From contig JAAGOF010000307.1 in assembly GCA_010645155.1 (NCBI GenBank), forward strand, positions 1 to 64,000: a stretch of 64,000 nucleotides of DNA, in the 5' to 3' direction. The notes beneath the pieces are model-generated. The model saw only the letters and a program-made list of their open reading frames with translations. It did not search any database and was not told where the DNA came from. Shown here piece by piece: positions 19,407 through 60,271 of this stretch; within the stretch, counting starts at the first letter, position 1, and the number at the start of each line of letters is the position of its first letter. A program made the translations under genes and the position numbers. This stretch comes from Tigriopus japonicus. Lineage: Eukaryota; Arthropoda; Copepoda; Harpacticoida; Harpacticidae.

Positions 19407-19412
19407 TTTATT
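19407..19412 (-). terminator. AATAAA overlapping the stop codon of gene 1
   Basis: The - strand reads CCA AAA TAA AAT, so AATAAA spans the TAA stop. A second AATAAA on the - strand lies at 19292-19297, about 110 bases downstream, and is the more likely working signal. Confidence 0.4.
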
Positions 19413-41000: not shown

Positions 41001-43602
41001 TATATAATCTTGACATAGGCCCCGTAAATACAAAAATTTGATTTTGAGAAACCTTGAGAGGCATCATAACCAGGGCCACCAAATTTATGTCAAAAAATTG
41101 CTGAAAAATGTATTATTTTTGGTAGTTCTTTATGGATATTATGTAACAAAATCGGATTTTTTTTGGCATTTTTTTGGTATTTTGGTCACATGTTGCCTTA
41201 AAAACTAACCTTTTTCATACTTGCATTATCTAAATTTTGTTTCATAGGTAGGAAAGATGCTAAAATAGTTTTATTTTGTCACAATTTTAGCAAATTTCAT
41301 CGCTTCTATTCGTATTTTGATTTTGACATCCTTTTTGTAGATCATTTTCAACATAACAGGCATTTTTCCACATTTTTTTCGAAATTTTCACAATTTTTTT
41401 AGCTTTGGAAAAAAATTGTACATTTTGTAACTACAATGTAAAATGTCATTTACAACTATCTAGCGGGCCTGATGATAAACTAGATATTCCTAGAGGGCTA
41501 ACAGAGAAATGTCACTTCAGTTCAGTCAGTGGAGATTTGTTTTGAACACACTTCATTGATCCGGAAGCAAGGGTGTCAAGTGCCTAAATGCATCATGCAT
41601 TGCTCTTGTTTGACCAAAGCAGTTGAATGAGCCATTTCGCTACTGACTCCCTGAAAACGCAAGTTCTGGTTTTGAATCACGTAACTTAGCGTGTTCAACG
41701 TCAAATCCCATCGCACACACAGTGCAGGCTGGGTGACTCATAAATATTTTTGGAGTCTCATTTCTCTGTTAGCCCTCTATCTAGATATTCCTAGAGATGC
41801 TTTATTGTCAGAGATAGGCGAGGTTCCGACTCAAGCGCCATGGAGAAAAGTAAACGATTTTTTGAACTAAAAACATTTCCAAATAAACAGGGTCTCCATG
41901 CTTTGGATGTAGAAAAATTGTCAAATGAAATGTCCAATAAAACCTTTTCCAGGGGATTTCCCCAATGTTCAGAGTCTTAAATTGCAAACTTTCAAGTTGG
42001 TTTTTGAGAAGAAAAATATAAGTTGGAAGCATCAATTCATTTAGAGCACATTAGGTTGGGCTCTAGGAAAATGCAAACGTTCTACTTCAGAGTAAAATGC
42101 GGAGACACTGGATTGAGGGACAGCTTGTCGAGACTTTGGTTTGTTTGGAAATGTTGAAAACGGCGCCCAAAAGGGCATCAGCCAATCACATGATGAGAAT
42201 TAGATGACGTCATTGACGCCGGTCTCAACCTCGCCCGTCTCTGGCAATAAAGTGTCTCTAGATATTCCTAGTGACAAAAGTAATGCTCTGTATATTCTTG
42301 CTTTCTTATCTTGACTTTGTCATAAAATTAAACATTTTTCCATGTCAAGTTCATTGAAACAGGCAATTTAACCACATTTATGTAAAACTTTTGCCATTTA
42401 TGTAATTTTGGACAAAAATCGCAAATGTTGGTAATTACTAGGGCCCGGAATTTTTTTTTTAATATGAAATATTTTAAAAATAGTTCTCCACTTCTCCTTG
42501 ATTTTTTTAAATATTTTAGCTGTTTCTTGGAAAAATAAGTATTTTCTAGAATTTTCTAGTCAAAAAACATATTTCGGACAAAATTGAGGAAAGTAAATGA
42601 ATGACCAATGCTCAATAGAGCTTACCCAAAATGAACCCAAAATACAAAAATCTCAACAAAATGGCATTTGTTCAAAGATTAGACATTCAAAACCAAGACT
42701 ACCGTCAAATACGAAAAAAACTGCGCCATCTATTGAGGCAAATTGAAAATTGTATTGTTTAAATCAATTACATGTCAAGTTTGCCCCCAATACCGGCCAA
42801 AGGCATCAATTTCACCAGAAACAAATTTGTAAAATCGGTGCACACAGACAAAAATACAAAAATATGGCCTTGTCAAAAATAAGATTTCTTAAACATCCGG
42901 CTTTTTTCCAAATATTTTGGGCTTTTGAAGAAAATATATATTGGATATTTTGTCACTTTTTTGCAAATATTTTTCCGGGCCCTAGTAATAACATTGTAAA
43001 ATGTAATTTACAACTAACTGGCGGCCTTGATCATAACATTTTAACTTGATAAAAATAGTATGATAGTCTTTTCTTGATGGGGTGACTAGAATCATGATAA
43101 AATGATAAAAGCTTTTCTTACTTTTGTTCCCAAGTGTTTCAATACAGAACATCACTGATTCCGTAAAAGCCTTATGCAATGGAATATCAGACTTCCAAGA
43201 TTCAACCAGCTCCTTCACTTCTTTCATTTCACTGGGCTTCATATTGAAGAATGACTCCAAAGCACTAGTTTCATTTCTAGACTGTTGAGATGAAACCTCA
43301 GATGGAGAATGTTTTTTAGGCCTTCCTCTTCCTCTTTCGGTCATTTGGAGGTTGTCCTTTGGATTATTAGAAACTTTGTCAAATTCTCCTTCATTTTCAC
43401 GATTTTGTAGGTCATCAGGTTGGGGATCCTTCTTCGGCCTTCCTCTTCCTCTTTTGGTCATTTGGAGGTTGTCCTTTGGATTATTGGCAGCACTGTCCAA
43501 TTCTTCTTTGGAGCCATGATTTTGTAAGGTATCATGTTGAGGATCCTTTTTTGGCTCCCCTTTTCCTCTTTTGGTGGGTTGGTTAACTTTTTCACTTGCC
43601 AT
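35032..43602 (-). CDS. AT-hook Mab-21/cGAS-like nucleotidyltransferase, gene 2 of 3
   Basis: Exons 43602-43122, 38669-38430, 38368-38249, 37626-37572, 36040-35032 join in phase to 634 residues. The ATG at 43602 is used because the codon before it is GTG. The N-terminal tail has a degenerate AT-hook (RGKGEPKK, 12-19) and two intact ones (51-58, 90-97), spaced 39 residues. A helical spine (MKEVKELVESWKSDIPLHKA) leads to the nucleotidyltransferase core: Gly172-Ser173, Asp186, Asp188 (PDLDMAFV) and Asp347 (FIDVDL). Exon 3 (LWLNPASLRIMLQEWKDRF) matches the strand-helix of Mab-21 proteins; exon 5 is the Mab-21 C-terminal half with HECHSCGRDL and LPNFFNPKINVL. Predicted role: nucleic-acid-activated cyclic dinucleotide synthesis; the AT-hooks predict minor-groove binding of AT-rich DNA. 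Intron 1 (4.45 kb) holds three MITEs and a tandem repeat; intron 2 is only 61 bases. Confidence 0.88.
36935..37135. repeat. 18-base tandem repeat
   Basis: TGCATTTTTGCATTTTAA is repeated about six times exactly, then degenerates. It lies in intron 4 of gene 2. Long frames on both strands here are products of the repeat. Confidence 0.9.
37670..37870. mobile_element. hAT-type MITE, CAGGGGTCGGCAACC ends, copy 2
   Basis: 201 bases with ends CAGGGGTCGGCAACC and GGTTGCCGACCCCTG. The 8-bp duplication CTCTACAT is exact at 37662-37669 and 37871-37878. It lies in intron 3 of gene 2, only 44 bases upstream of the exon 4 acceptor. Confidence 0.9.
39285..39830. repeat. tandem repeats, 25- and 26-base units
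   Basis: First block: GAGTTTGATTCAAGAATTTATTTCA units (39290-39490). Second block: GTGTGATACAAAAGTTTGATTCAAGA units (39490-39680). Then looser GAGTTTGATTCAAG words. The common word GTTTGATTCAAGA shows that one unit gave rise to the other. Intron 1 of gene 2. Confidence 0.85.
39935..40496. mobile_element. palindromic MITE, CCAGACTA ends
   Basis: CCAGACTAGAGGTAGACTGG at the left and CCAGTCTACCCATAGTCTGG at the right are inverted. Inner arms continue (GAAGCTATGATTTAATTA and TAATTAAATCATAGCTTC; ATGTTGGTTGACCC and GGGTCACCCAACAT). About 562 bases. No clear target duplication. Intron 1 of gene 2. Confidence 0.7.
41491..41783. mobile_element. hAT-type MITE, TAGAGGGCTAACAG ends
   Basis: Left end TAGAGGGCTAACAGAGAAATG; right end CATTTCTCTGTTAGCCCTCTA followed by a 4-base TCTA. 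The flanks are GATATTCC at 41483-41490 and 41784-41791. The right copy is shared with the next element. Interior has no gene. Intron 1 of gene 2. Confidence 0.75.
41792..42260. mobile_element. hAT-type MITE, TAGAGAYRCTTTATTG ends
   Basis: 469 bases between TAGAGATGCTTTATTGTCAG and GGCAATAAAGTGTCTCTA. Subterminal inverted words GGCGAGGTT and AACCTCGCC continue the repeat. Flanks GATATTCC at 41784-41791 and 42261-42268 are an exact 8-bp duplication. Intron 1 of gene 2. Confidence 0.85.
42441..42990. mobile_element. GGGCCCGG-ended MITE, full copy
   Basis: Left end CTAGGGCCCGGAATTTTTTT, right end AAATATTTTTCCGGGCCCTAG. Interior has GCGCCATCTATTGAGGCAA, shared with 24445-24836 (inverted), 33900-34200 and, at one end, 63903-64000. 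Lies 130 bases downstream of exon 1 of gene 2. Confidence 0.75.
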
Positions 43603-43663
43603 CACTAGTTTTGCATTCTGGTTAACGCAGCCTCATTAAACTAACTACTTTCCTTAATCAGGT

Positions 43664-43925
43664 ACGAATCTTGGAGCAGCGTGTGGAGTTTTTTTGGGGG
43701 GGTAAGGGTGAGGGAAGGAAGGGAAGGGGTACTAAATTCTTCTTGCTCCCTCCCAAAAGTCTTTCTAAAGGCTTGTTATTAGGAAGTGCTCTGACAACTC
43801 AAAAACCCGGCTTTTAAAGGATTGAGGAGAATTACGTCTTTTTCGGCTGAGAGCACCATAGATACAGTATATTTATATAAGAAAATTGGATGCACCTTTG
43901 AGTTCAAAACTGCACTTTTAACCGT
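43664..43925 (-). repeat. dispersed repeat, inverted partner at 52075-52340
   Basis: GGTGCAxxxxxGAATTCAAA, CCTCAATGCTTTGAAAACC, GGGCTTTTGAGTTGTCAGAG, AAGACTTTTTGGAGGGAGCA and a C-rich run match 52075-52340 in reverse complement. It lies just upstream of gene 2, and its partner downstream of gene 3. Confidence 0.7.
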
Positions 43926-44157
43926 CACCTTCAGTCTTAAAAAATACTAAAAGTGATTCACGATTCTCTCATTCAAGTCGTTTTTTACTCTGAAATATGT
44001 GAGGATGATATTTCGGCCCTTCCAGTCTACAAAATCTGATGATGCGAGGTTTGCTAAAAATAAAGGCCCAATGTTCAAGAGGAGGTGCTGATAACTTGTG
44101 GGGCTACTACGTAGAAAGGTAAGAGTGCTATCAATATGTTTTATGGAAGATTAGCTA

Positions 44158-46810
44158 CAAGGAATGGGATTCCCTGTAAAGAGAGTTAATCATTAATATA
44201 CTTTCAATAATTAATGTTTATATGAAATTTGATCTACCAATGAGTTACTGTTGGCAGATCTATACAACCCTTGTATAGTGGGTTGGTCAGGAATAGTATT
44301 CAAAAATTTGTCCAATCCTGCCTTAAATGCTGTTAGAGGATCAGCTCCTACATTTTCCCGACGAAGACTAATGGGTAACAAATTGAACAATGAAGGAGCC
44401 CGATGAAGAAGAGAGGAGGACTTCATTGTTCGAACTAGCCTCGATTCCCTTGGATTTGGAGGTGCTCTCAGAACGCACGTAAACCCTCTACGATGGCTAA
44501 AATTGTCCAAGTCTCTTTCTCCAAGTCTTCTACTAAACATTTCGAGTCCTGACCATTCCTTCCACAAACTAATTTTGTGTCATCAGCATAAGAAGAAATA
44601 CTGGCTTTTGTTCTAAACTTCTGGAGAGGAGCAATGAAGAGAATAAATAGGAGTGGACCTAAAATTGAACCTTGTGGAACACCTGACTTGACATCATACA
44701 TGCCGCTAAAGGATCCTTCAACTTTAACTATCTGCTTCCTTTCGCTTATAAAACTATCAATCCAAGTCAGGACCTTACCCTGGACCCCAAACTCTTTGAG
44801 TTGATCGAGCAAAAGACCATGATCTACCTTATCAAAGGCCTTGGCAAAGTCAAGATAGACTACTTCAACTGACTCGTGACTTTCGAGCCCTTCAATGATT
44901 TGCTCAATATGATCAACCAATTGGGTTACTGTACTAAAATGAGCTCGAAACCCATGTTGTCCAGAAGGAATTAAATCATGGACTTCCAAAAAATCTACAA
45001 GCTTGGACTTCATAATCTTCTCAAAAACCTTTGCAACGCTGGAGGTAAGAGAAATGGGCCTATAATTACTAGGGAGTGACTTATCTCCGCCCTTAAAAAT
45101 TGGAACGACATGAGCTACTTTTAGAGAAGAGGGAAACTTGCCCTGATCTAAGATGCAACGCATCAAGTAGGAGAAAACAGGGGCAAGAATCTGTGAACAT
45201 TTCATCAGAAACTGAGATGTCACACCATCAGGTCCAGGAGAACTCGAGAGCTTTAAGCTCTTTATGGCCTCAAAAGCATCTTGATCTGTGACTACCAGAT
45301 CCTCCAATCGATTATCCTGACTATCAATGCCAGTCTCATCAACAACACTGCTGCAGTCATAGCCTACTCATTCTACACTTTTTGGAATTGAAAATACACT
45401 TGAGAACTGATCTCCAAGCATATTGGCCATAACCTAACTATCATTGACGGTTTTACCGTCGACCTCAAAAGGTCCTACTGGATGCTTCATTTTTCTCTTT
45501 GTGTTTGCAAAAGAGAAAAACGCCTTTGGATTAGTCTTAACATCCTGGATCACTCTACTTTCCTTCTCTAACTGATCGGAATCAATAGAGGCCCTAATCT
45601 TTGATTGGACCACATCCATTTTGCTTTGGAGGCTGGCTACAACAAATGGATTTGAAGTACGTCGAAGTCTATTTGAAATCTGACAACTCCTTTTGAACAA
45701 CTTCCTTCTAACCTTTGGAATTCTAGACAATGGCCCACCTTTTGCCACTACTTCTGGAATACCGATGGACAAACAAACCTCGTCCAAAAGGGAAATAAGC
45801 TTATTTATGGCGTCATCTATGGATGGTTCCTGCTTTAGAATGGAAATCAAGTCCAACTCGCCTAATCTTTCAACAATAAGAGGCCAATGTTCCTCTTTGA
45901 ACTTGAACTTTGCCACACCGACCTTTTGTGCGGGTTTAACTCTAGAGCTCGCCGGCTTTTGAGTAATGGTCGACCCTATCTCAAGAATGTGATGATCTGA
46001 AAGACTACATGGGGCAACATGGACACACTGGATCAGATCAGGGTCGTTGGAAAAAACTAAGTCTAAAACACTCTCTGCTCTGGTTGCAACACCAACGTGT
46101 TGAGAGAGATTAAGCAAGATCGCAAACTCTTCCTATTTTTCGAAAGACAGCGATGCTGTTTTCGAAATGGGAATGTACCCATCCGGACTAACCTCCCACT
46201 CTACAATGCTAGCCGGAAAATTGAAGTCACCAACCACAATGAGGCGAGAACAAACCTCTCGATCTAGCTCCTTTCGTGTAAAATCAAGTGCCGAAAGAAA
46301 TGACGAAGAACTACAAGAAGGTGGCCGATACATTGTTACTATTGTAAGATGAAGAGCCTTGACGTGGCTAATCAAAACTTCTACTTCTCCATTCGACCTA
46401 TGAACATGACTAAAATGTAAGTCTTTCCTGACATATACAGTAGACATACGCCCCCATGTGGGAAAATGGGATTTTCAGGGCGTACTCTATCACATCGAAC
46501 TAGCCTAAAACCAGCTATTGCTACTTCTTCATCTAAAACTCCTGGACGAAACCAAGTCTCTGTAATGGAGATGAAGGAGACCTCTCTATCAATGGCTAGC
46601 TCCTCCAGTACTCTGACCTTTGTGCAGTCTTTTTTGGAAATAAGACAATGCACAATGCACGTTCAAATAGAGCCCTTTTATGGGCTTAAGGTCTTCCGAT
46701 GGACCAAGTCTATTAGTTCTTGGACCTTCCTGTCTAACCTTAAAAAATCCTGCTTACTAACAAAATTTTGCCCTACAGGAAGGGATTGTTGAGGAGGGGG
46801 AGGGGCGACT
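44158..46810 (-). mobile_element. CR1/L2-like LINE, longest copy
   Basis: On the - strand the order is a leader with LRLDRKVQELIDLVH, endonuclease, linker, reverse transcriptase, and the 3' end with TACAGGGAATCCC... TTGTAGC at 44158-44185. About 2.65 kb. The upstream side is interrupted by an LTR element (46818-47669) beyond which tRNA-like sequence follows. Confidence 0.85.
44211..46653 (-). pseudogene. LINE ORF2 with frameshifts and a deletion
   Basis: Segments in order: 46653-46381 and 46447-46133 (endonuclease: ISITETWFRPG, MYRPPS, VVGDFNFPAS), 46117-45434 (LDLVFSND, SLSDHHILEIGS, then linker, ending at a nonsense codon after VNDS), 45307-44468 (reverse transcriptase with SSPGPDGVTSQF, NYRPISLTSS, DFAKAFDKVDHGL, SGVPQGSILGPLL, and SSYADDTKL), 44567-44211 (C-terminal domain, LLPISLRREN... 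DQISYKH). The YADD box and GVPQGS motif are kept, so the RT core is fairly young, but the join after EDLEKETW skips about 100 residues present at 31020-31350. The frame breaks make it non-functional as it stands. Confidence 0.87.
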
Positions 46811-46817
46811 ACATTGG

Positions 46818-47669
46818 TGTTGCATTCTGGTTCTTTCTCTTCTCTCGTTCGATATCTATGTTGTCATAAGCTGAATAAAGGGCACTTGAACTTGGAATGT
46901 CGATCTAACAAGTCCTATCAAAGAATGGGGATTCGACATTCCAAGTTCAAGTCCAAGTTCTAGTGTTGCATGAGGAGATGTTGGTAAATGACTCACAATA
47001 AAGAGACTCTGGCAAAACCAACTAAGGGAACAAGGTCCTTCAAGAAAAAACATCAAATCAACTGAATATGCGGATCAAACCTAACTGTTCGTTGTTTATT
47101 ACGAATGCGGCGGCTGCGACGAGGACCAGACCGGACGGGTTGGAATGGCTCCTCGTCCTTCTGCGGTCGTTGTCGTCGTCGTTCCGATTGGGAAGTGGTG
47201 ATCGTCGAGGAATCCCGCCGGAGAAAGCGATGATTTCTTCTATATAGACCTCCCGGCGTGTCAATCCAATAAGATCTCCCATGGTGTAGTTTCTCCACCA
47301 CAACTCCCCCCACTGACCAGTTCTTATCCAGAGGTGATTGGAACAGAACACGATCACCTGGAGAAAAGGGAGAATGCTGGATGCCACCTGCGGCCTTGGC
47401 TTTAACCTTTTGCGTGCCCCTTTCTTCGCTTGATCCTATTAGTGACTAATTCAATCTGTTGTGCATTTATGTTCATTGAAGCGGGAATTTCGAATTGTTT
47501 TCCTGTCTAATCCGTTCTCCCAAACCTAGTTCGAACGTGGGGGGGAGATGTTGCATTCTGGTTCTTTCTCTTCTCTCGTTCGATGTCTATGTTGTCATAA
47601 GCTGAATAAAGGGCACTTGAACTTGGAATGTCGAACTAACAAGTCCTATCAAAGAATGGGGATTCGACA
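46818..47669. mobile_element. short LTR retrotransposon, 121-bp LTRs, ATTGG duplication
   Basis: Direct repeats 46818-46938 and 47549-47669 are both 121 bases, begin TGTTGCATTCTGG and end GGATTCGACA, and differ at about two positions. The 5-bp flanks ATTGG at 46813-46817 and 47670-47674 are an exact target duplication. A purine run GTGGGGGGGAGA just before the right LTR and an AATAAA inside the LTR imply a + strand element, yet the only coding remnant (below) is on the - strand. Internal region only 610 bases, so the element is non-autonomous. Confidence 0.87.
47053..47420 (-). pseudogene. Ty3/gypsy-like integrase C-terminus remnant
   Basis: The - strand reads KAAGGIQHSPFSPGDRVLFQ, SPLDKNWSVGGVVVEKLHHG, RSYWIDTPGGLYRRNHRFLR and then RSGPRRSRRIRNKQRTVRFD before TAG. 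GDRVLFQ...W..GVVVEKL...Y.I....G..YRRN.RFLR is the SH3-like GPY/F-type integrase end of Ty3/gypsy elements, followed by the usual basic tail. No protease, RT or RNase H is left. Confidence 0.8.
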
Positions 47670-47674
47670 ATTGG

Positions 47675-47777
47675 CAACGGATTTCTCCCAACAGGATTCG
47701 AACCTACGCCGTCTGGGGAAGCACTTACACTCGGCACTTTTAAGAACGCGCTAGTACGCGTGGCCACTCTGGCTTCT
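47675..47777 (-). repeat. tRNA-like promoter module beside the LINE, unit 1
   Basis: The - strand reads GCCAGAGTGGCCACGCGTAC, a long variable arm, then the B box GGTTCGAATCC (47694-47704), then GGGAGAAATCC. It is almost the same as the head of the SINE at 14566. The LTR element was inserted between it and the LINE leader. Confidence 0.75.
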
Positions 47778-47784
47778 TTAACAA

Positions 47785-47908
47785 GATTTCTCCCGACAAC
47801 GTTCATTCTATCCCCAACAGGACTCGAACTTGCGCCGTCTGGGGAAGCTCTTATTCTCGGCCCTTAATAACACTTAATAAGCGCGGCCATTCTGGCTTCC
47901 TTTGGCTT
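47785..47908 (-). repeat. tRNA-like promoter module, unit 2
   Basis: A diverged second unit: GCCAGAATGGCCGCGCTTAT, B box AGTTCGAGTCC (one or two bases off consensus), GGGATAGAATG and GGGAGAAATC, ending 8 bases from unit 1. Together they form a head-to-tail tRNA-like dimer on the LINE strand. Confidence 0.65.
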
Positions 47909-49564
47909 TTCTTTGTTAATTTGCTGTTAATCCAAATAGTTGCTTTTTTCGTTAATTTTCTTGCTCGAGGTTGACTTGAAATAGGTAAAAAATAGAGAGA
48001 ACGAAAAATTCAACATGACAAAGGCAGTCAAGAAAAATGTGCAAGCATGTTGGAATTGAGCGATAAGATTTACGGTTGTCAATAAAAACGTAAGTTGCTC
48101 TATTTGTCATGACTCATGAGTTAATCTTTGTCAGGATTTACTTTCATGTTTTAGGAATTTGCACATTTCAACATGACTTGAATTAAAAGGGTTTCATTCT
48201 GGGTTTTGAGCAGGTTGTAATTTATGACTGTTTTTTGTAAATCTTCAGTAGATAATTTTTGTTTTGTTTTCTTTGGGTTTGGGTTTGCTTTCATTTTGAA
48301 ACAAGACATCTGGCTCAAAAAGGCTATCATGGAAATATTTGCCAAACTTCACTCCACTTGTTTTCACTATTTCTAAGTTCAATGACAAATTTAGGTGCCA
48401 AGAAACATTCATCTATTTTTTTGAGCCGAATCCTCAGCGGTCGGTTCTAATTCTAACCATGGAAAAAAACCTAACTCAGGAGTGGACATTTTACTTTCTT
48501 TTAATCGTTTCTCTTTGTGGGAAGACTAGTACCAAAAGTTGATATTTTCATGCTCTAGTGTATTTTCCATTTTTCTATGCAATCGTCTTATCAGCGGTTA
48601 TTAAACTGGGACTCAGGGCTCCCTAAGGATCCTTCGGTGGGGCTCAAGTGTTTTTTATGTCTGAAACGGCAAAGCTGAGAAATCCACACCACCAATTTAT
48701 AGAAACAGTCCTCACGTAAAATTTCAGTTTTTGACCCAATTTGACGCCGTCAAAAAAATGGAATGGGCTACCCTCCTGAAATTTTGCCAAACGGTCATGG
48801 AGACCGGGTCGCACATGGAGCGCGACCTCCTTATTACTTTTAACAAGGCCAAAAATATCATCAATGATGGAAAAACACTTTGAATGATACCTACGGAGTC
48901 AAGGCTCTCCATTTCAGCCAAGTTGGACAAATTTGACCAAAAGCTGGGAAGGATGTGGGCGTAAAAAGTCAATGAAGTTAAGGTTTGAAGAAATGTTCGT
49001 CATGGGTTGACATTGTTGAGTCAAAAAGGCAAGTCACCATTTTGTTGGTTTCATCAAGGAGTGCCCTTTCCTAAAGCATAGTTTAAAGGATCCTTAAGCC
49101 TTATTCTCACATGATTGCTTACCAAGGTCTTTGTGATCCACAAAAGGTTTCAAATTGTGGACTGATCACCATGTAATTCAGATATAGTATTTTGCAACTG
49201 TTGGATGTTCCTAAAGAAGCTCATGTGAAAGAAGCGTCGTCAGAACACTAGCGCCAGCGGCTTTGTCATGAAGCTTTAAAAAAGCCAAACAAGCCAGGAA
49301 GTGCAAGAGAAAAAAATACTGCAAAAAGGAGCCTTTGACCGAAAAATATCCATGGAAGGGCTTGAATCTATCTTATTTTGTGATCCAATGACTGGATCCA
49401 TCTTTATTGGCATGATCTGTGTAAGTTGATTGCAAATTCGACTTTCGTTTTAACTTGAACTTCCTAATTGATGGTGGCGACAACAACGGCAAATGTTTGA
49501 ACTTTCAAAAAAGCCAAACAACTTGACTGTGACGATACTTCTTTCCCATGAGCTTCTGTTCCCA
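47909..49564. other. intergenic, no gene seen
   Basis: AT-rich, with only the dispersed repeat at 49205-49365 recognised. Open frames are short and look random. Confidence 0.45.
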
Positions 49565-50428
49565 TTGAGGAAAAACAAGTGGAAAAAATTACATCCAAGC
49601 CCTGGAGGGACTCGAGAAAACTCCGGTAGGGGTTAGCAAAAACAACCCAACATATTCCTTTGCTACCAGGTACAAGGTTTGCTTCAAGGTACTGTTGCAC
49701 CTTTGGAAAACGGCTAAATCTCGAGACTATGATCATGTCCCAAAATAGCTTCAGATGATAGAAAATCTTNNNNNNNNNNNNNNNNNNNNNNNNNNNNNNN
49801 NNNNNNNNNNNNNNNNNNNNNNNNNNNNNNNNNNNNNNNNNNNNNNNNNNNNNNNNNNNNNNNNNNNNNNNNNNNNNNNNNNNNNNNNNNNNNNNNNNNN
49901 NNNNNNNNNNNNNNNNNNNNNNNNNNNNNNNNNNNNNNNNNNNNNNNNNNNNNNNNNNNNNNNNNNNNNNNNNNNNNNNNNNNNNNNNNNNNNNNNNNNN
50001 NNNNNNNNNNNNNNNNNNNNNNNNNNNNNNNNNNNNNNNNNNNNNNNNNNNNNNNNNNNNNNNNNNNNNNNNNNNNNNNNNNNNNNNNNNNNNNNNNNNN
50101 NNNNNNNNNNNNNNNNNNNNNNNNNNNNNNNNNNNNNNNNNNNNNNNNNNNNNNNNNNNNNNNNNNNNNNNNNNNNNNNNNNNNNNNNNNNNNNNNNNNN
50201 NNNNNNNNNNNNNNNNNNNNNNNTTGAGGAAAAACAAGTGGAAAAAATAACATCCAAGCCCTGGAGGGACTCGAGAAAACTCCGGTAGGGGTTAGCAAAA
50301 ACAACCCAAAATATTCCTTTGCTACCAGGTACAAGGTTTGCTTCAAGGTACTGTTGCACCTTTGGAAAACGGCTAAATCTCGAGACTGTGATCATGTCCC
50401 AAAATAGCTTCAGATGATAGAAAATCTT
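49565..50428. repeat. 205-bp direct repeat on both sides of a gap
   Basis: 49565-49769 and 50224-50428 are the same 205 bases (starting TTGAGGAAAAACAAGTGG, ending GATAGAAAATCTT) with only a few substitutions, separated by the 454-base N run 49770-50223. Either a tandem repeat longer than the reads or an assembly duplication. Frames running through the N run have no meaning. Confidence 0.9.
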
Positions 50429-50514
50429 ACTATTCTCAAGTTATTCAGCCATTTGCATTCTTTTTGGTACGCCCCTTGTCTGGCACTTGAAGTGCAATGA
50501 CTACGGAAGTCATT

Positions 50515-50645
50515 CTATTGCACAAAAATTGGCCTTAATTGCGCAAAAAATTGCACAAAAACGACAAAAATTGCACAAAACGGCAAAAATTGCACAAAAC
50601 GGCAAAAATTGCACAAAAAACAGCAAAAATTGCACCGAAAATGCC
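50515..50645 (+). repeat. short tandem repeat, CAAAAATTGCACAAAA
   Basis: CGGCAAAAATTGCACAAAA units of 19-20 bases repeat about six times with variation. Similar words (AAAATTGCAAAAA) recur at 51590-51655. Confidence 0.75.
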
Positions 50646-51874
50646 AGAACCGTCATTCTGGAAAAGACCTTTTTGAATGGCCTTAAATGGGGCTTGCAAA
50701 GTTTATTTGATGTTACATCTTAACAATGAAGTGTTCCATTGAAATTTGGGAAACCATCTATGAACAAAGGTGGATGGGTGCTTGTTTGCAAGCAAAATCA
50801 TTTTTTGTTGTTTAGCTTTTCTAAGAATCTTTCGTTGCACAAGCCTTTGAACGTTTCACACGAGTTTGAGGAAAGTACAAAAAGAAGAGAGAAGAAAATG
50901 AGAAAAGAATAGATGGCGTAAGGAGTAAATTATGGCTTTTGACTCGAATTATTCATTGCTCGAAAATTTGATATTGAAGCCAAATCAACATTTCATTTTA
51001 TAAATGAAATCAACAAATGCATAAGTATCAACTACTGAAAGAGTTCAATCTGATTTTCAATTTGCTCAATCATTTTTGCGCGCGCTAATTCGTTGTGACT
51101 GCCAATTCACGTAAACTGTACATTTGTCACTTCTGCGAAAAATCCGTTCGTTTATAGAGAATATCCAAAAAGTGACCCTGTTATTGAAGACTTTGGGCCT
51201 AGGGTGCCATCAAGATCAATGGCATTGGGGGCAGTCCCACAAGATTGAACAGATTGAAATCAAATTAAATCCATCGCTAGGATCAACTTGAGGCAAACTT
51301 TAATGACTCAGTGAAAAGTTTTAACTCCAAGATAACTCGGAATGCACTTTCCAATGTGCTGCCATCAAACTGCGGTCAGATATATTTATCATTATTCAAT
51401 GTAAGGACTACAAAAGCCGTCCTAAAGGTTGTCTCTGTTAAAATAATAAAAAATAATAAAGTTGTCGTCTGCTTTCCTATACGACTGAAATATTTTAGCC
51501 ACATTGAATAATTGTTGTACTCAAAACCAGTTTTTGCGCAAATGGAACATTTTTCTGCCGGGAATCTCGGGAAAATGGATGAAAATTGCAAAAAATTGTA
51601 CAAAACTTGAAAAATTGCAAAAATTGAAAATAAACGGGAAAATTGCAAAAAGTTGCATTTACTAAAAAAATGACATCCTTAGTATGACTGAGTTTTTGTG
51701 CACTTGAAGAATAAATGTACTTGAACTACAATTCAGTGTAATTCAATTACATTTGAAAGTAACTGTAATTTTCATTGATTAAATTTGAAAAAGCAAGTGC
51801 AATTCTATTTAGTTACATTTACGGACAAAGTAATTGTAATTAGTTATATTTAAAAAATAATTGACACAGGTCTC

Positions 51875-51974
51875 AGGCTAGTTTTTTAAGACGCAAAGAT
51901 CGATCTTAAGATCGTACTTTAGTACTGTAAGTTAGATCTTGAGATCGATCTTTGCGCTTAAAAAACTAGCCTCT
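51875..51974. mobile_element. 100-bp hairpin element, copy 2
   Basis: AGGCTAGTTTTTTAAGACGC and its inverted partner GCGCTTAAAAAACTAGCCT bound the same palindrome as 16322-16421. GGTCTC stands on both sides (51869-51874 and 51975-51980), a possible 6-base target duplication. Confidence 0.75.
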
Positions 51975-52689
51975 GGTCTCAATCTTAGCATTGGTTGGAA
52001 TCTATTGTTCTTAGTTCCTCAGAATAGTTAATCACTATTATGTTTTTTTTTAAACACTGATGTTGTTGAAAATGACGATTATACAGGTGCAGTGTGAAAT
52101 TCAAACAATGCGTCCAATTTCCTCAGATAAATTATATTTGTGGGACTGTCAGCCGAGAAAACGTAACTCTCCTCAATGCTTTGAAAACCGGGCTTTTGAG
52201 TTGTCAGAGCACGTCTTAACAAGCCTTTGGAAAGACTTTTTGGAGGGAGCAAGAAGAATTCAGTACCCCCCTCCCTTCCTTCCCCCACCCCCACCCCAAA
52301 ACAAACCTCCACACGCTACTCCAAGATACGTGTCTGGTTAACGCAGAAACTAGTTTATTGGGGTTGCGTGACCCCCGAGGGCAAAAAACCCAAAATGAGG
52401 CAAACTCTTTGATTTTTGATTAGTTCGAAGAGATTTTCTACGGAAACGGAAACCAATTGGATTCATACAAACTCATACTCAAAGATGTCAGGATTACCTC
52501 GCATTCTTATTGTGAGGCATTAATTGGTGTTGTTTGAACTCCACACTAATTAATATCACTTTTTACGTAACACGAAATTACTTCAGACACATTTGCAGCA
52601 GAAGTGAGATTTGTTACCTACCAAACTTCACTATCAAATGAGCTAAGTAATTTAGTTCTACTTCTGATAAGAAAAGTTCTGATAACAAA

Positions 52690-53025
52690 AATGTAATTTA
52701 TTACAATTACTTGGCCCAAAAAATTAATTAATTACAACGAATCGGCCCAAAGATGTAATTATTTACAAGTACTTGGCCCAAGAATGTAATTAATTACAAG
52801 TACTTGGCCCAAAAATGTAATTAACAATTACTTGGCCCAAAAAGTAACTGATTACAATTACTTGGCCCAAAACGTAATTAATTACAATTACTTGGCCCAA
52901 AAATGTAATTAATTACAATTACTAGCCCAAAAATGTAATTATTTACAATTACTTGGCCCAAAAATGGAATTATTTACAATTACTTGGCCTAAAAATGTAG
53001 TTAATTACAATTACTCCCCATTCCT
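52690..53025. repeat. 31-base tandem repeat near the 3' end of gene 3
   Basis: CTTGGCCCAAAAATGTAATT plus AATTACAATTA repeats about ten times. Because TGTAATT and AATTACA are complementary, each unit also forms a small hairpin. Related TGTAATT-rich sequence is at 51720-51860 and 55065-55215. Confidence 0.85.
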
Positions 53026-53127
53026 GCCCACTAGGTCGTCTCGATCTTTGATAGAGAACGTGTTGTGATACTGTAACTATAATCTGTAGTAGAAAAAGCT
53101 AACACACAAGAAATTTACGCAATAATC

Positions 53128-56100
53128 TCATTGGTTTTGTATTTTGGAAATTTCACTTTTGACAAAAGCCAGAAGCTGTTCACTCTGGTCAGGTTGGTCA
53201 GATTTTCCACTATCTAATCTGGCTTCCTCAATAGCAATCCATTTAGGTTGATGTTTCTTCACAAATGCATCAACCATTTCGGGACTAGGTGCTTTCAAAT
53301 AAGGCAATTTTTCAAACTTTAGCGTCAGAAATAGGATTTTGGCAATGGTAAGAATGTGATAAGAGGACTGTTGCCTGGCAGTGACAATTTTCTTCAATTG
53401 AGCTTTAAAAACATTTTTGCGCACCAGTTGTATGATTGTGTCCGTGTCGACGTCAAAATCTAGGACATTGATTTTTGGATTGAAAAAGTTGGGAAGACCA
53501 TTTTCGTGTTTGTAACTCTCTTTGAGAAGTGATGAGCATCTCAAAAGCATCACTTCCTTGGGAAGGTCTTCTTTGGGAGGTACCTTATTTGTTCCTGGGG
53601 GAATGGGTGGTTTTTGGAACACATCCATCAAATCCCGACCACATGAATGGCACTCATGGACCCAGAAAATGGCTTGAATCAATACGTTTGATTTCACTTT
53701 GGGGCGATCCTTGGAAGTTTGGGCAAATGAAATGAGCAAGGATTTGAGCAAGCCCAAGGTTGAGATCCCATTGGGAATGCTTTTGAGTAGGATGTCTTGC
53801 TCAAAAGTGGGACAGAAATCTCGGTCCATTTTCCCATCTTTGGGAGAACATCTTGGAGAGAGGAGCACATGAGCCGCTTTTAGTTCGTCAATCAAGGATT
53901 TGGGAGGCCAACATTTGGGAGGCGTTCGAGTTGTCCATTCTTGCCATTCTTGCGGAATGCTTGAGAATGGAACTTTGACTAGAATGGACAGGTCCACATC
54001 GATGAAGAGGTCTTTGTGAAGTTCCCATAAGGGGAGACCATATTCAAGAAAACCAGCGTTCAGGAATTGCCATTGTAGATTGTACTGCTTTTTGTAACTC
54101 ATGTCTCTCAAGAATTTTTCCGCAGATGAAATTTTGTCACCTGGTCTGAAAAAACAACAACCAAATTATTTAAGATTCTTGCAGAGGTTGTGAAAAACAC
54201 AGCATTTTGTTAATCAATTTTAGGAATCTTTGAAGGTCACATGCTTTGTGTTTGGGAATGGATGCTTCAAGCATACTTCATTAATTGACTTCTGCCCTTT
54301 TTTGGGTCTTTTTAACGCTCTCGTGCTTCCAAAATGACGCTATATTTCTGGTAGCCTGTTCGTACTGAAGGTTTAACAAAAAAATTATCAAAGTAATGCC
54401 CTAAAAGTTTTAAGATACGCTTGAAGTCAATATCGGAAGCATGTTTGTCATGTGCCTTGACGCAGACAAAACATACAAGCTATTGGTCGATGGCTTTCAT
54501 TTGCTTTACGTACCCTAGTGAACGGCTCAAATTGCTTGTGAGACCAGCTTGTGTATACCAAGAAAAAGCAACCTACCAGTGGATCTTACAAAGTGCTATT
54601 ATAACCATTCATTATCGTATTCATTATCGTATGTTCAAATGGGTAACGTTTCATTCAAGGACACATAATGCAATGGTATATTCTTTATGACTATGGACAG
54701 ACCTGTGATGTATTTTTTGGCCATCTTTTTATTCAAAGTCAGGCATACCTGATTTGAAAGTACGGAAGAACCCTCTCAATTTCAGTAGCAAAAGTTTAAT
54801 GATAATGATCTTTAGATAAGATGAATCACCAAACATTTTTAAGATTGTTAAGGATTCCTTTTCCAACTTCAGATTGTGCAGATGAGAAAGGAATTGTTGC
54901 AAAACCAGGTTTAAATCTCCGCTTTATCTAACTCTCGCGCTCATCAGAAACAAATGTCTTCCGATCTTTTTTACGCCAAAATAAGCGTATGGAAATAGGG
55001 CAAAAAGCTGAAGAAGGCAAAATCAGATTTTGAAACAAAAGATCTATCATCCATAGTGAGACCTGTGTCAATTACATTTATTTTATTAAGTTACAATTAC
55101 TTTTGTTTCAAAAGTAATCAGCTACAATTACATACTTTATTTTCAGTGTAATTAGTTGCAATAAAAATTGCTTTCAAAAAATAATTGAATTACATTGAAT
55201 TACATTGTAATTGATTGAGTAACAAGCCTGTATTTACACTACTCATTAATGGCTCAAGCAAGAATTACTTTCAAAATACACCTTTGGTCCAATCAGTTCA
55301 ATCAAAATTCGACGGAACAAAATGTATGTTTGTTGCAAAAAACCTAACATTTAAGTTCAATGACCTGATAACCTGACCCAAGGTGTACTTTTGAAATCCG
55401 TTCCGAAGTTCAGTAATTCCTGCGCTATTCCGTTGGAGCATCTCTGGGTGCATCAGGTTTGTATTACCTTGGATTGGCATCAAATGAAAATGACAAGGAA
55501 CCACCAGAGGAAGGAATTTTCGCTAAAAAAGAGATTAGAAGCAATCAAAACTCTCTTCTCTCCATCATGAACCTCATCAAGACTCAATGAAAATGATGAA
55601 ATTTTATTTGAATCAAGCTACTGCGTTCCAAGTTTGTCTTTCACGGACGATGTGTATCAAATTTCAGATCATTTGGAAGTCTGAGTCAAAAGGTCGTGAA
55701 GACTTGCCATCAAATGAAGTCAGAAATGTGGTAATGGGGTAATTGGCATGGTGTCAAAATCCATTACAAGTAACGTAACTATCTAATGGTAACAACGAAC
55801 AAACTACGTTTGAAATCAGTGACAATGGGCAGGCTAGGTTTCTTGCTAAATTCACTCTAGGTTTCCTCCTTAGCCAATCATACAGTAATTTGAAATGTAA
55901 TAAATCAGATAGAAATGTGTGACAAGTTGAACTAACCCCAATCTGCTTTCAGGTTTGGCGTTTTTTTTTTTGTAAATAAAAAATAATGGCATACATCAAA
56001 TTAAACATTAGAGGAACACAACTTCAGTGTCAGTGTCATTGCCAGACAACTAATTTCAGGGAAAATAGACGTAAAGTTACAAAATCATGAAATCTGCCGG

Positions 56101-59100
56101 TTGGACCGTGCGTTGTTCTAAGCGATTGTAGGTAAAAAGATCACAAATAAAAAGTTCACAGTAAAATGGTCAACCGGTAAAAAGGTGACGGCAAAAAGGT
56201 CACACGGTAAAAAGGTGACGGTAAAGAGGTCACACGGTAAAAAGGTGACGGCAAAAAGGTCATACGGCAAAAAGGTGACGTTAAAACGGTCACCCGATAA
56301 AAAAGTGACGGTAAAAAGGTCACACGGTAGAAAGGTCACAATGAAAGCTCACTCCCACGAACATAAATGTATTCCACCCGCAATATTTCTACAGCCCATG
56401 GGCAGATCGTAAAAGAAGGGTATACTCTTGACTACTAAGGGGTGAGGGAACACCTTCCTTCAAGGTCTGCCGGATCTAGAGCGTGTTGTGACCATGGTCC
56501 TAAAAAATATTTGCAATGACTTCGTGTTGACTTTACTTATGAGACCTTTACCTTAGCATAATTGTGTTCCCCCGGTTAATTTTGGGGTACCAATGGGCAA
56601 TCTTCAACTAGGGAAGATCTCAGGGTCCCTGGGTTCACCCCTTTGGCTACCTCCAGAGCTGTCCGGGTCTGTGACCTTTTTAATGTGACCTCTTTACCGT
56701 GTGTCCTTCTTACCACGGCCGTTTTACGGTGACCCTTTTACCTTGTGACCTATTTAACGCGCGCCGTCCTAAGCTTGGCATGTCAAAATGTCGAAATGAT
56801 TCCTATTACGCCTGCTCTAGACTGAGATTCACTGAGATACCCAAAACTAGAGCTCTATAATAGAAAGAGTACAATCATATCCAACGCCATCTAGTTCATT
56901 CTACTCGCAACTGCTCGCCGTTCCCAAAAGGATGCACCCTCTAAGCTGAACAAATTTTCCAAATTATCAGACCAAGATAGCACCTTTTGAAAAACTAAAG
57001 GGCCTAGAACCTTAATGAAGGGGTCCAAAATGAACAATTAGTGTGTTTCAAATGATTTACAGGCAATTCAGCTTTCAATCATTTGAAACACACTAATAGT
57101 TCATTTTGGACCCCTTCATTAAGGTTATAGGCCCTTTAGTTTCTCAAAAGGTGCTATCTTGGTTTGATAATTTGGTAAACTTGTTCAGCTTAGAGGGTAC
57201 TTGTGCATCCTTTCGGGAACGGCGAGCAGTTGTGAGCAGAATGAACTAGATGGCGTTGGATATGATTGTACTCTTTCTAATATAGAGCTCTACCCAAAAC
57301 CACAACTTTCGTCTCATTCATTATATTGATTTGAAAAATTATTCATGATGATTATGATTGGAATTCAAAAGCCAAGTTTTACCCTTAGCAGAGCCGTGGA
57401 CAACCCGTCTTAAGTTGTATTGTTTACTGTTTGTTTTATTTATACAAAGAGCAGACCAAGCGACACCCGCTTTCAAAAATGGACTCACCCTCTATTAAAC
57501 CAAATCTGTTCTTCCATTCTGACAGCATAAGTCGCAAAGCCGCTGGATTCAAGCACAATTTGCTATCAACTTCCTTGAAAATATTGCATTCGTTTTTGTT
57601 CTTAGTATCTGTTAAGGAAGAAATAATGAAAATCAACAACTAGAATGCCTGGATGAGAAATATATCCCTTACTTCGAATCTTTTTGCCGAGAAAATCTGC
57701 GAGTTTCAACTGATGATTTTTTATGGAGTCTTCATTCTTTATCTCGCCACAGATATATCCATTCTCTACTAATTGTAGTGCCAAAACATCTTTAAATTCT
57801 CCATTGGCAAAATCCATAACGAATGCCAGGTCGAGGTCAGGTAATTGTAATGGCGAGTAAGAACAAGTCAACAAGGAACCATAATATTTGTAATCAAAAC
57901 ATCCATCTTCGCCTAAAACATAACGATAAAAATGATTTGAGGTCACAAAACCTAACAGTTTTTTAAGAACAAAATTGCAAACATTTTTGAGGCTTGGAAA
58001 TCTGTGAACAAATGCTGCATTAGATATGTCATTTTTTTCTAAAACTTCAAAAATTTAAAAGTACCTTTTCGTGATGGCAAAAATATTTTCAGCATAATCT
58101 CATGAGCCTTTTTTAATCCTATACAAAAAGGGCGTGGACGCTCATTTAGAAAAAAGGCCATAAGTTCATTGTTAATTTAATCAATTCTTTTTTTTTGGTT
58201 GGTTGCAGATTTTTTAGTACCGACACAAGGAATGAGATTCCCTGCAGAGAAAATTAATCATGAAAACATTTATTAACTAGTGATGGACCGAAAGGGCTCA
58301 TAACCAAAACCGAAAGTTTCGGCCGAAAGGGCTCACAATCGAAACCGACACCGAAACCAGACTTCAAAATTGTATCAATGCAAAATTCACCTTAAATATT
58401 AAATTGCGTTCGATGTTGGGAAATCGCAAATTTTGAAAAATCGGGAAACGTAAATTTCAGAGGTTTTTGAACGAATTTTTTTTCGATTTTGTTGTCAAAC
58501 TCCATCCTTTGTTGTGCATGTCTGCTTTCGGTTTCAGTGGGCTAAATCGAAGCCGAAAACGAAACCGAAATTTCGGCAAAAAGCGCTTTCGGTCTATCAC
58601 TAGTTTACACACGTAAAGCAAAAATATTTAGCAATATCAGTGCACATGCGCCTTTTTGGAAACCCATGTTTCACGTAGGAAACACAAAAAAAATACATTT
58701 TTTTCAAATCAGAGCATGTACAAAGGATTCAGTCATTCGATGATTTTTTTGCCCATAGATCATTCCCTCGCATCCTTGTCTTCCAAGATCTTAGGTGCAA
58801 TTCTTACTGGAAATTGAAGCAAAGGAGACTTCCTCCTTCTTTCTTGATCTTGAACTGCAAATGGAAAGTGTCTTTTCAATGAGAACAAGAATATGAAAAG
58901 CATTATTGTCTTGAGTTAAATTTCCTGGGTTTATTGGCCAGGAAATCCGTGTGGTCTTTCAGGGCATGAAGGCCCGGAAATTTCAATTAATAGGCTTGAT
59001 TGCTATTCTGGTCATCAAAAGGACACTTTCCCTTCTTGGTTCAAGATCGAGATAAATGGAAAAGAAAGAAGACTCTTCTTTGCTGCAATTTCATTCAGAA

Positions 59101-60271
59101 AATCACCTATTTAGTGAAATGATGGATTGAAATGTTAATGGAAATTAGAGGAACTTAGAGAAAAATGTCCTCTTCATCTGGATGTTCAGAAGAACACAAA
59201 GCTTCTCGTATTCATTTAAATTTTTTAAATAGAAGGCCAAAAGTCAACAGAAAGCAAATGAACGATAAGATTAGCTTCTTCTTTCTTATGTTAAAAAGCT
59301 TTTGGTATTTGAAACCTTAAATTGAACCTTGCTCAGTTACTATTTGATGTTTTTATAATTATCTGAACACCTAATTAAACTCAAAACTCAAAATTGATAA
59401 TCTTTGCAAAACAACATGTTATAAAAGAAAAAAAAATATTTTTCGCCCTTTCCTCGTTATTTCATAAAAAACAGAAAAAAATATGAAAAAATCGTGGAAG
59501 CTTTGTGACATATTCCAATACAAAAAAAAGTTCACTGCTGTCATGGAAAAAAGGAGTTCACCTTGCACCATAAATGAAATGTTGAGTAGCTTTTCGTAGC
59601 ATTTCTACTTGACGGTAAATGTTAATCATAAAAACCTTAGTCTTACGCTTGTTCCTAAGTGTTTCAATACAGTACATCACTGATTCCGTAAAAGCCTTAT
59701 GCAATGGAATATCAGACTTCCAAGATGCAACCAGCTCCTTCACTGCTTCCATCTCACTAGGATCCATATTGAAAAATGACTCCAAAGCACTAGTTTCATT
59801 TCTAAATTGTTGAGATGAAACCGCAGATGGAGAATGTTTTTTAGGCCTTCCTCTTCCTCTTTTGATCAATTGGAGGTTGTCCTTTGGATTATTGGAAACT
59901 TTGTCAAATTCTCCTTCATTTTCACGATTTTGTAGGTCATCAGGTTGGGGATCCTTTTTTGGCCTTCCTCTTCCTCTTTTGGTCAATTGAAGGTTGTCCT
60001 TTGGATTATTAGAAACTTTGTCAAATTCTCCTTCATTTTCACGATTTTGTAGGTCATCAGGTTGGGGATCCTTCTTCGGCCTTCCTCTTCCTCTTTTGGT
60101 CAATTGAAGGTTGTCCTTTGGATTATTAGAAACTTTGTCAAATTCTCCTTCATTTTCACGATTTTGTAGGTCATCAGGTTGAGGATCCTTTTTTGGCCTT
60201 CCTCTTCCTCTTTTGACGGGTTGGTTGCTTTTTTCATTTTTCCTCAATTCACTTTGGTCTGGTGTTTCCAT
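53128..60271 (-). CDS. AT-hook Mab-21/cGAS-like nucleotidyltransferase, gene 3 of 3
   Basis: Exons 60271-59647, 57912-57673, 57608-57489, 55522-55468, 54145-53128 join in phase to an intact 685-residue protein. Residues 20-28, 59-67, 98-106 and 137-145 are four AT-hooks (KRGRGRPKK), the spacer being acidic and polar (DPQPDDLQNRENEGEFDK). A helical spine follows at about 173-208. The catalytic signature is Gly220-Ser221, Asp234 and Asp236 (PDLDLAFV), with Asp398 as third acid (FIDVDL). Exon 3 gives LCLNPAALRLMLSEWKNRF, exon 4 AKIPSSGGSLSFSFDANP, exon 5 the Mab-21 C-terminal half ending in VKSEISKIQNQ. AT-hooks in this position resemble, in role at least, the DNA-binding basic tail of cGAS. Product and ligand are not shown by sequence. 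Intron 3 carries a foldback MITE and a GGTCAC element, intron 1 a CCGAAA MITE and a LINE tail; intron 2 is 64 bases. Confidence 0.9.
56110..56772 (-). mobile_element. GGTCAC-repeat element, copy 2
   Basis: 56150-56345 is an array of about 15-base units (GGTAAAAAGGTGACG, GCAAAAAGGTCACAC). 56675-56772 has the same units inverted and ends CCTTGTGACCTATTTAACGC, GCGCC, the complement of the start of the copy at 28776. The body shares GGCTACCTCCAGAG and GGTTCACCC. The element has tandem units in opposite orientation at its two ends. Intron 3 of gene 3. Confidence 0.65.
56848..57292. mobile_element. hAT-type foldback MITE, TAGAGCTCTATAAT ends
   Basis: 445 bases, arms of about 215 bases with a loop of about 15. 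Ends TAGAGCTCTATAATAGAAAG and CTTTCTAATATAGAGCTCTA. The 8-bp duplication CCCAAAAC is exact at 56840-56847 and 57293-57300. The ends are close to those of the 1.7-kb foldback in gene 1 (TAGAGCGCTATAATAAAAG). Intron 3 of gene 3. Confidence 0.9.
58195..58265 (-). mobile_element. LINE/SINE 3'-end fragment
   Basis: GATTTTTTAGTACCGACACAAGG then AATGAGATTCCCTGCAGAGA is a diverged reverse complement of the LINE 3' end at 6785-6835. Intron 1 of gene 3. Confidence 0.6.
58276..58608 (+). mobile_element. CCGAAA-ended MITE, copy 3
   Basis: Left end ACTAGTGATGGACCGAAAG and right end CTTTCGGTCTATCACTAGT are inverted repeats of 19 bases, so this is the most complete copy. Interior as in the other two. Intron 1 of gene 3. 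Confidence 0.8.
59840..60215 (-). repeat. 117-bp coding repeat (AT-hook units)
   Basis: The word GGCCTTCCTCTTCCTCTTTT starts at 59844, 59961, 60078 and 60195, exactly 117 bases apart. The repeat therefore keeps the frame, each unit being one 39-residue AT-hook plus spacer of gene 3. Units are almost identical, with one hook differing in its last residues (KKHSP). Confidence 0.95.

Follow-up and report, generated by a model that had tools for sequence, protein, structure and literature searches.

Vertebrate cGAS is equipped with an irregular basic N-terminal tail, which binds DNA, and with a zinc thumb; how enzymes of the cGAS type tell reportable DNA apart is an open question, and the contribution of the N-terminal tail is debated. 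AT-hooks bind the minor groove of AT-rich DNA. In HMGA proteins several hooks with the RGRP core are joined by flexible linkers, and these proteins have neither an enzyme domain nor a strict 39-residue repeat. Here we describe a cluster of three tandem paralogs, named genes 1, 2 and 3, on the minus strand of a contig of the copepod Tigriopus japonicus (assembly GCA_010645155.1, contig JAAGOF010000307.1, positions 1 to 64,000; this whole stretch of 64,000 nucleotides is called the window), in two of which regular arrays of AT-hooks precede the core of a putative nucleotidyltransferase of the Mab-21/cGLR type.

According to the available part of the paper by Li et al. 2023 (PMC9980059), 87% of cGLRs are without an added signalling domain, the fusions named are ankyrin, TPR, death-domain and multi-cGLR ones, and clustered copies are reported in insects. 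The terms 'AT-hook', 'copepod' and 'Tigriopus' have no occurrence in the main text of that paper or in PMC10732462, as far as these two texts were available, and a full-text search gave no paper joining cGLRs and copepods. The sequence-only reading of this DNA was aware of no Mab-21/cGLR protein described with an AT-hook tail. This agrees with the literature searched, where we found none (for papers on cGAS and AT-hooks, among the matches listed), and to that extent the AT-hook-tailed architecture is undescribed.

The cluster resembles the cGLRs, as presented in the available part of PMC9980059, in the pattern GS...[DE]h[DE]h, a candidate third acid, a weak Mab-21_C match at the C-terminal side, an isoelectric point (pI) above 8.5 and clustered copies. 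It differs from them by Y before GS, by far longer spacing to the candidate third acid, by the lack of confirmed core-wide homology and by the tail itself. With vertebrate cGAS it possibly shares a DNA-binding N-terminal tail placed before a nucleotidyltransferase; however, the tail is here a periodic array of AT-hooks, and inspection of the C-terminal part by eye showed no H-C-C-C zinc-thumb cluster. The several hooks with the RGRP core are a likeness to HMGA-type proteins. The shrimp Mab21 proteins (PMC12928593, available part, compared by description only) are likewise crustacean members of the Mab-21 family with three paralogs, but they are reported not to be sensors of nucleic acids. The cluster is likely a new variant within the Mab-21/cGLR-like group.

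The first exon of gene 3 (60271-59647, minus strand) encodes RGRGRPKK at residues 21, 60, 99 and 138, with spacings of 39, 39 and 39 residues. The first exon of gene 2 (43602-43122, minus strand) encodes a decayed hook, RGKGEPKK, at residue 12 and intact RGRGRPKK at residues 51 and 90, spaced by 39 and 39. Each array is a single open exon, with four perfect hooks in gene 3 and two in gene 2. Both these numbers and the exact spacing, as claimed earlier, can be read directly from the exon translations. The positions of the hooks are as follows.

60188..60211, minus strand: AT-hook 1 of gene 3 (RGRGRPKK)
60071..60094, minus strand: AT-hook 2 of gene 3 (RGRGRPKK)
59954..59977, minus strand: AT-hook 3 of gene 3 (RGRGRPKK)
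59837..59860, minus strand: AT-hook 4 of gene 3 (RGRGRPKK)
43546..43569, minus strand: decayed AT-hook of gene 2 (RGKGEPKK)
43429..43452, minus strand: AT-hook of gene 2 (RGRGRPKK)
43312..43335, minus strand: AT-hook of gene 2 (RGRGRPKK)

Tandem Repeats Finder detected a 117-bp unit in both arrays, in 3.2 and 2.2 copies. The six intact hooks have three variable bases, all of them synonymous. In six frames of the window RGRGRPKK was met 6 times, against 0 in 20 Markov-simulated windows, while the whole genome (194.85 Mb, 158 contigs) contained nine sites coding for it, six being the arrays of genes 2 and 3 and three lying on other contigs. We considered whether the hooks are a genome-wide repeat or mobile motif and rejected it, as the exon 1 protein matches this cluster only (all three places) and six of the nine RGRGRPKK sites are here. 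A Hid1 match (PF12722) on exon 1 of gene 2, with an expect value (E) of 0.0017 and 17.1 bits where the cut-off is 22.5, was taken as a chance match in a disordered tail, because the corresponding exon of gene 3 gives only E 0.57.

Protein-database searches, one of which scored the 7991 candidates sharing most words, gave a sole homolog, the uncharacterized protein LOC131891861 of Tigriopus californicus, present as one database cluster with two member sequences from one contig. In this annotated protein a single AT-hook, RGRGRPRK (residues 15-22), stands in front of the same core. Each of the five exon blocks can be aligned with it, and exon 5 of gene 3 is 65% identical to it. The Pfam profile AT_hook (PF02178, cut-off 17.4 bits) recognized exon 1 of gene 3 with 25 bits in four stretches; exon 1 of gene 2 remained below the cut-off with 13.5 bits in two stretches, RGRGRP being intact, and LOC131891861 also remained below it with 12.6 bits, although its RGRGRP is intact. 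NCBIfam had no match for LOC131891861, and scans of viral contigs with the core and with the Mab-21 of this genome found no relative.

Using LOC131891861 as a guide, we built complete models of the three genes, with predicted proteins of 685 aa (gene 3), 634 aa (gene 2) and 531 aa (gene 1). One five-exon plan is common to all three, exons 2, 3 and 4 having 240, 120 and 55 bp in each. All 12 introns are GT-AG, the frames are open and the splice phases agree across the three genes.

59647..60271, minus strand: gene 3 exon 1, with ATG, four AT-hooks and a predicted helix
57673..57912, minus strand: gene 3 exon 2, 240 bp, with the putative catalytic motif YYGS-x12-DLD
57489..57608, minus strand: gene 3 exon 3, 120 bp
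55468..55522, minus strand: gene 3 exon 4, a 55-bp micro-exon, AKIPSSGGSLSFSFDANP
53128..54145, minus strand: gene 3 exon 5, with the IDVDLSI segment (candidate third acid) and a putative helical C-lobe, to the stop
43122..43602, minus strand: gene 2 exon 1, with one decayed and two intact AT-hooks and a predicted helix
38430..38669, minus strand: gene 2 exon 2, 240 bp, with the putative catalytic motif
38249..38368, minus strand: gene 2 exon 3, 120 bp
37572..37626, minus strand: gene 2 exon 4, 55 bp
35032..36040, minus strand: gene 2 exon 5
26803..26968, minus strand: gene 1 exon 1, with ATG and the predicted helix only, no AT-hook
23102..23341, minus strand: gene 1 exon 2, 240 bp, with the putative catalytic motif
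21971..22090, minus strand: gene 1 exon 3, 120 bp
21358..21412, minus strand: gene 1 exon 4, 55 bp
19408..20422, minus strand: gene 1 exon 5

We can now ask: do the hook exon and the core belong to one gene? The hooks in exon 1 of genes 2 and 3 are in frame with a segment, a predicted helix, lying ahead of the catalytic motif, and exon 1 of gene 1 consists of this segment alone. The ATG of gene 1 immediately precedes this segment, which in the other two genes comes after the hooks, and there is an in-frame stop in the stretch directly 5′ of it. No hook exon was found for gene 1, since upstream of it neither the exon 1 protein nor LOC131891861 matches anything hook-like. Because of the shared five-exon plan with its phases, the hook-less exon 1 of gene 1 and the annotated protein of T. 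californicus, the hook exon is very likely part of the same gene as the core. That it is the first exon of another gene was rejected as unlikely, as it goes against the exon phases, the common segment and the protein of T. californicus alike. The architecture of hooks plus core is thus present in two genomes, in both by gene prediction.

The exon borders proposed earlier (59647, 57912 and 57673 in gene 3; 43122, 38669 and 38430 in gene 2) coincide with the GT-AG borders of the five-exon models, in which exons 3 and 4 complete the core. The more general proposal, an array of AT-hooks fused to a cGAS-like enzyme, stands in part: the gene models and the T. californicus protein make the fusion very likely, and the identity of the enzyme is only probable. 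The tail was also supposed to be modular and extensible, which fits the number of hooks: none in gene 1, two and one decayed in gene 2, four in gene 3, and one in the relative from T. californicus.

It is useful to trace how the tail has changed between the paralogs and between the two species. The last hook of gene 2 is identical in DNA to the last hook of gene 3, and its other intact hook to the second hook of gene 3. Such identity at the DNA level means that units are common to the two arrays and that these differ in whole units; the array apparently lengthens or shortens as copies of the 117-bp coding unit are gained or lost. LOC131891861 has one hook, in contrast to four in gene 3 or two and one decayed in gene 2; its sequence KGQRAKKQTPS, found where genes 2 and 3 have their last hook, is perhaps a decayed hook. 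For gene 1, secondary loss of hooks and their primary lack both fit without an outgroup, and either may be the case. Between genes 2 and 3 the ratio of nonsynonymous to synonymous substitution rates (dN/dS, NG86 method) was 0.46 for the tail (109 codons) and 0.41 for the core (524 codons), which corresponds to purifying selection on both. Some 90-nt blocks of exon 5 are 97-100% identical among paralogs (35513-35812 and 53609-53908, for example, 99%), and genes 2 and 3 share 96% identity over part of the tail, whereas other coding blocks are only 60-67% identical among paralogs. This patchy identity suggests gene conversion.

The nucleotidyltransferase motif of the Pol-beta type is hG[GS]-x9-13-[DE]h[DE]h. 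Each of the four proteins (the three paralogs and LOC131891861) contains it at one site, while it arose in 22-34 of 2000 shuffles per protein. The element is GS-x12-DLD, preceded by YY or FY (YYGS or FYGS), with G, S and both D invariant in all four. Of the 20-column blocks ahead of IDVDLSI the one with GS is conserved most, with 80% invariant columns against 48% overall, and the next block, with DLD, has 55%; blocks of the C-half reach 90%, above the GS block. By eye, the later invariant IDVDLSI resembles the third-acid strand and is our candidate for this acid, an earlier invariant FSFD/FTFD being the alternative. When Pfam was searched with LOC131891861 at E up to 10, Mab-21_C was the only match besides AT_hook (E 0.088), and it was the only match of the core alone (E 0.065). 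A consensus of the core that we typed also matched only Mab-21_C, with E 0.12 as a whole and E 0.016 for the C-lobe piece. The genome has a clear Mab-21 gene on another contig (L013, G000:C23:289009-289551), the sole genome-wide match of PF03281, and a further Mab-21_C match on another contig (L015, G000:C8:511842-512024). Against this Mab-21, hhalign aligned the WP...LLS segments over 33 columns with E 0.098 and a probability of only 0.6%. From motif, conservation and profile we consider the core a probable Mab-21/cGLR enzyme, and in our judgement it quite probably has a fold of the Mab-21 type.

The charge of the proteins was also compared. Whole-protein pI is 8.81-9.04 in all four, and the available part of Li et al. 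(PMC9980059) gives pI above 8.5 for nucleic-acid-sensing cGLRs, by a different pI algorithm. The core of the four-hook protein has a pI of 7.90, that of the two-hook protein 8.77, that of the protein without hooks 8.87 and that of the one-hook protein of T. californicus 8.55. At most these values, from four sequences and showing no clean trend, hint that the tail adds positive charge where there is less of it in the core.

What could such proteins do? Tentatively, and with somewhat less than even confidence, we regard them as divergent Mab-21/cGLR-like nucleotidyltransferases whose AT-hook tail would tether the enzyme to AT-rich DNA, with DNA controlling the synthesis of a nucleotide signal. 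The hooks would contact the minor groove, a row of them would bind through multiple contacts, and bringing the enzyme to DNA, which may be foreign DNA in the cytosol or the animal's own chromatin, would be the most likely use of the tail. DNA contact might then switch on synthesis of a nucleotide signal by the core, whose fold, catalysis and switching are all inferred, and changes in hook number by the 117-bp unit could tune the strength of binding gene by gene. A bolder form of this proposal, which we find doubtful, is that one lineage of innate immune nucleotidyltransferases in copepods reads DNA through an AT-hook antenna growing and shrinking in 39-residue steps, where the number of hooks, 0, 1, 2 or 4, would determine the kind and amount of DNA needed to start signalling. 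The cores with 0, 2 and 4 hooks and their one-hook relative would form a natural dose series for the effect of a DNA-binding tail on an enzyme of this kind.

A number of results weigh against a DNA-controlled enzyme of this family, and several of them lead to other explanations. The linkers of the tail are acidic, with 28 acidic against 37 basic residues in the tail of gene 3 and 18 against 23 in that of gene 2. STING (PF15009) was not found in the genome, and control genomes gave no match either. Since gene 1 lacks hooks, not every member needs the tail, and the same core without any hook also speaks against a chromatin-tethered, restrained enzyme, an explanation that we think rather unlikely. 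Here the hooks would hold the protein on the animal's own AT-rich chromatin in the nucleus, and control would come from release or damage instead of foreign DNA; as to binding by the tail, this explanation overlaps our tentative reading. AT-hooks are a typical feature of architectural proteins of the nucleus, KRGRGRPKK resembles by eye a nuclear localisation signal, and the window has 32-39% GC, so that the DNA of the animal itself is AT-rich. The active site raises another question. The cGLR motif h[QT]GS-x8-20-[DE]h[DE]h-x50-90-h[DE]h, as given in the available part of Li et al. 2023 (PMC9980059), fits in its first spacing (12) and in both first acids. However, all four proteins have Y at the Q/T place before GS, and the distance from the second acid to the candidate third acid is 159-162 residues in all of them, not 50-90; FSFD/FTFD, about 107 residues on, is outside this range too. 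By that published definition we do not class the predicted core as a cGLR. This departure from the strict motif would suit a non-catalytic Mab-21-like adaptor, which would make no nucleotide signals and would serve as a DNA-bound scaffold or transcription cofactor. The three shrimp Mab21 proteins are reported to show no binding of double-stranded DNA or RNA and to make no cyclic GMP-AMP, yet to activate IKK-epsilon (PMC12928593, available part). We hold an adaptor to be unlikely in view of G, S and both D of GS-DLD, invariant in all four proteins, and of the GS block, the most conserved of the N-half.

The remaining difficulties concern the family itself. Of the four natural cores only one gave Mab-21_C, and the three exon 5 pieces, scanned singly, gave it in no case; the N-half of the consensus had no Pfam match, and no match of the core exceeded any Pfam cut-off. 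Mab-21 (PF03281) was unmatched in scans of the exons, the models, LOC131891861 and the consensus, and genome-wide searches with PF03281 and PF20266 found other loci and not this cluster. Among ten scrambled or reversed controls Mab-21_C was met in none, but three matched other families (E 0.004, 0.12 and 0.17), and because one of them reached E 0.004 the E-value of Mab-21_C alone is no proof. In comparison with the Mab-21 of the genome the C-half was borderline, as 14-103 of 1000 shuffles were as good locally and 20-518 of 1000 globally (for reversed sequences, 225 to 836); for the N-half the figure was 589-977 of 1000, which is chance. Searches of PDB sequences gave chance-like rows only, the best being a thioesterase (E 0.023, 42 residues of exon 5). 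Models made with AlphaFold were unusable, with a predicted local distance difference test score (pLDDT) of 36.0 for LOC131891861 (10 alignment rows, 9 of them exon fragments) and 46.6 for most of exon 5 (4 rows), probably due to scarcity of relatives. Among the matches that Foldseek and VIA-align listed for these low-confidence models none was named cGAS or Mab-21, and a few were other nucleotidyltransferases (AadA and MntA, for example), which is meaningless at that pLDDT. The missing Pfam and PDB matches and the failure of both models would be expected if the core were outside the Mab-21 family, another nucleotidyltransferase or an unrelated copepod-specific fold with a chance likeness to cGAS. 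We think this improbable in view of the motif, the conservation of its block and the Mab-21_C match, which lies C-terminal to the motif as expected from the order in the family.

Several repeats and open frames were noticed in and around the three genes. A 127-nt inverted repeat (56936-57198, 94% complementary, 9-nt loop) is located in the gene 3 intron between exons 3 and 4, and a long 13/25-bp tandem array (39254-39808) in the first intron of gene 2. About 110 bp past the stop codon of gene 3 there is an AT-rich tandem array with a 31-bp unit in 10.8 copies (52686-53015). Pieces resembling a long interspersed nuclear element (LINE), in several frames that look by eye like endonuclease and reverse transcriptase, lie between genes 3 and 2 (44211-46662, minus strand) and at 4955-6423 (plus strand). 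By eye, an open frame at 47053-47445 (minus strand) resembles the end of a gypsy-type retroelement polyprotein, and another at 8721-9404 (minus strand) resembles Kelch repeats.

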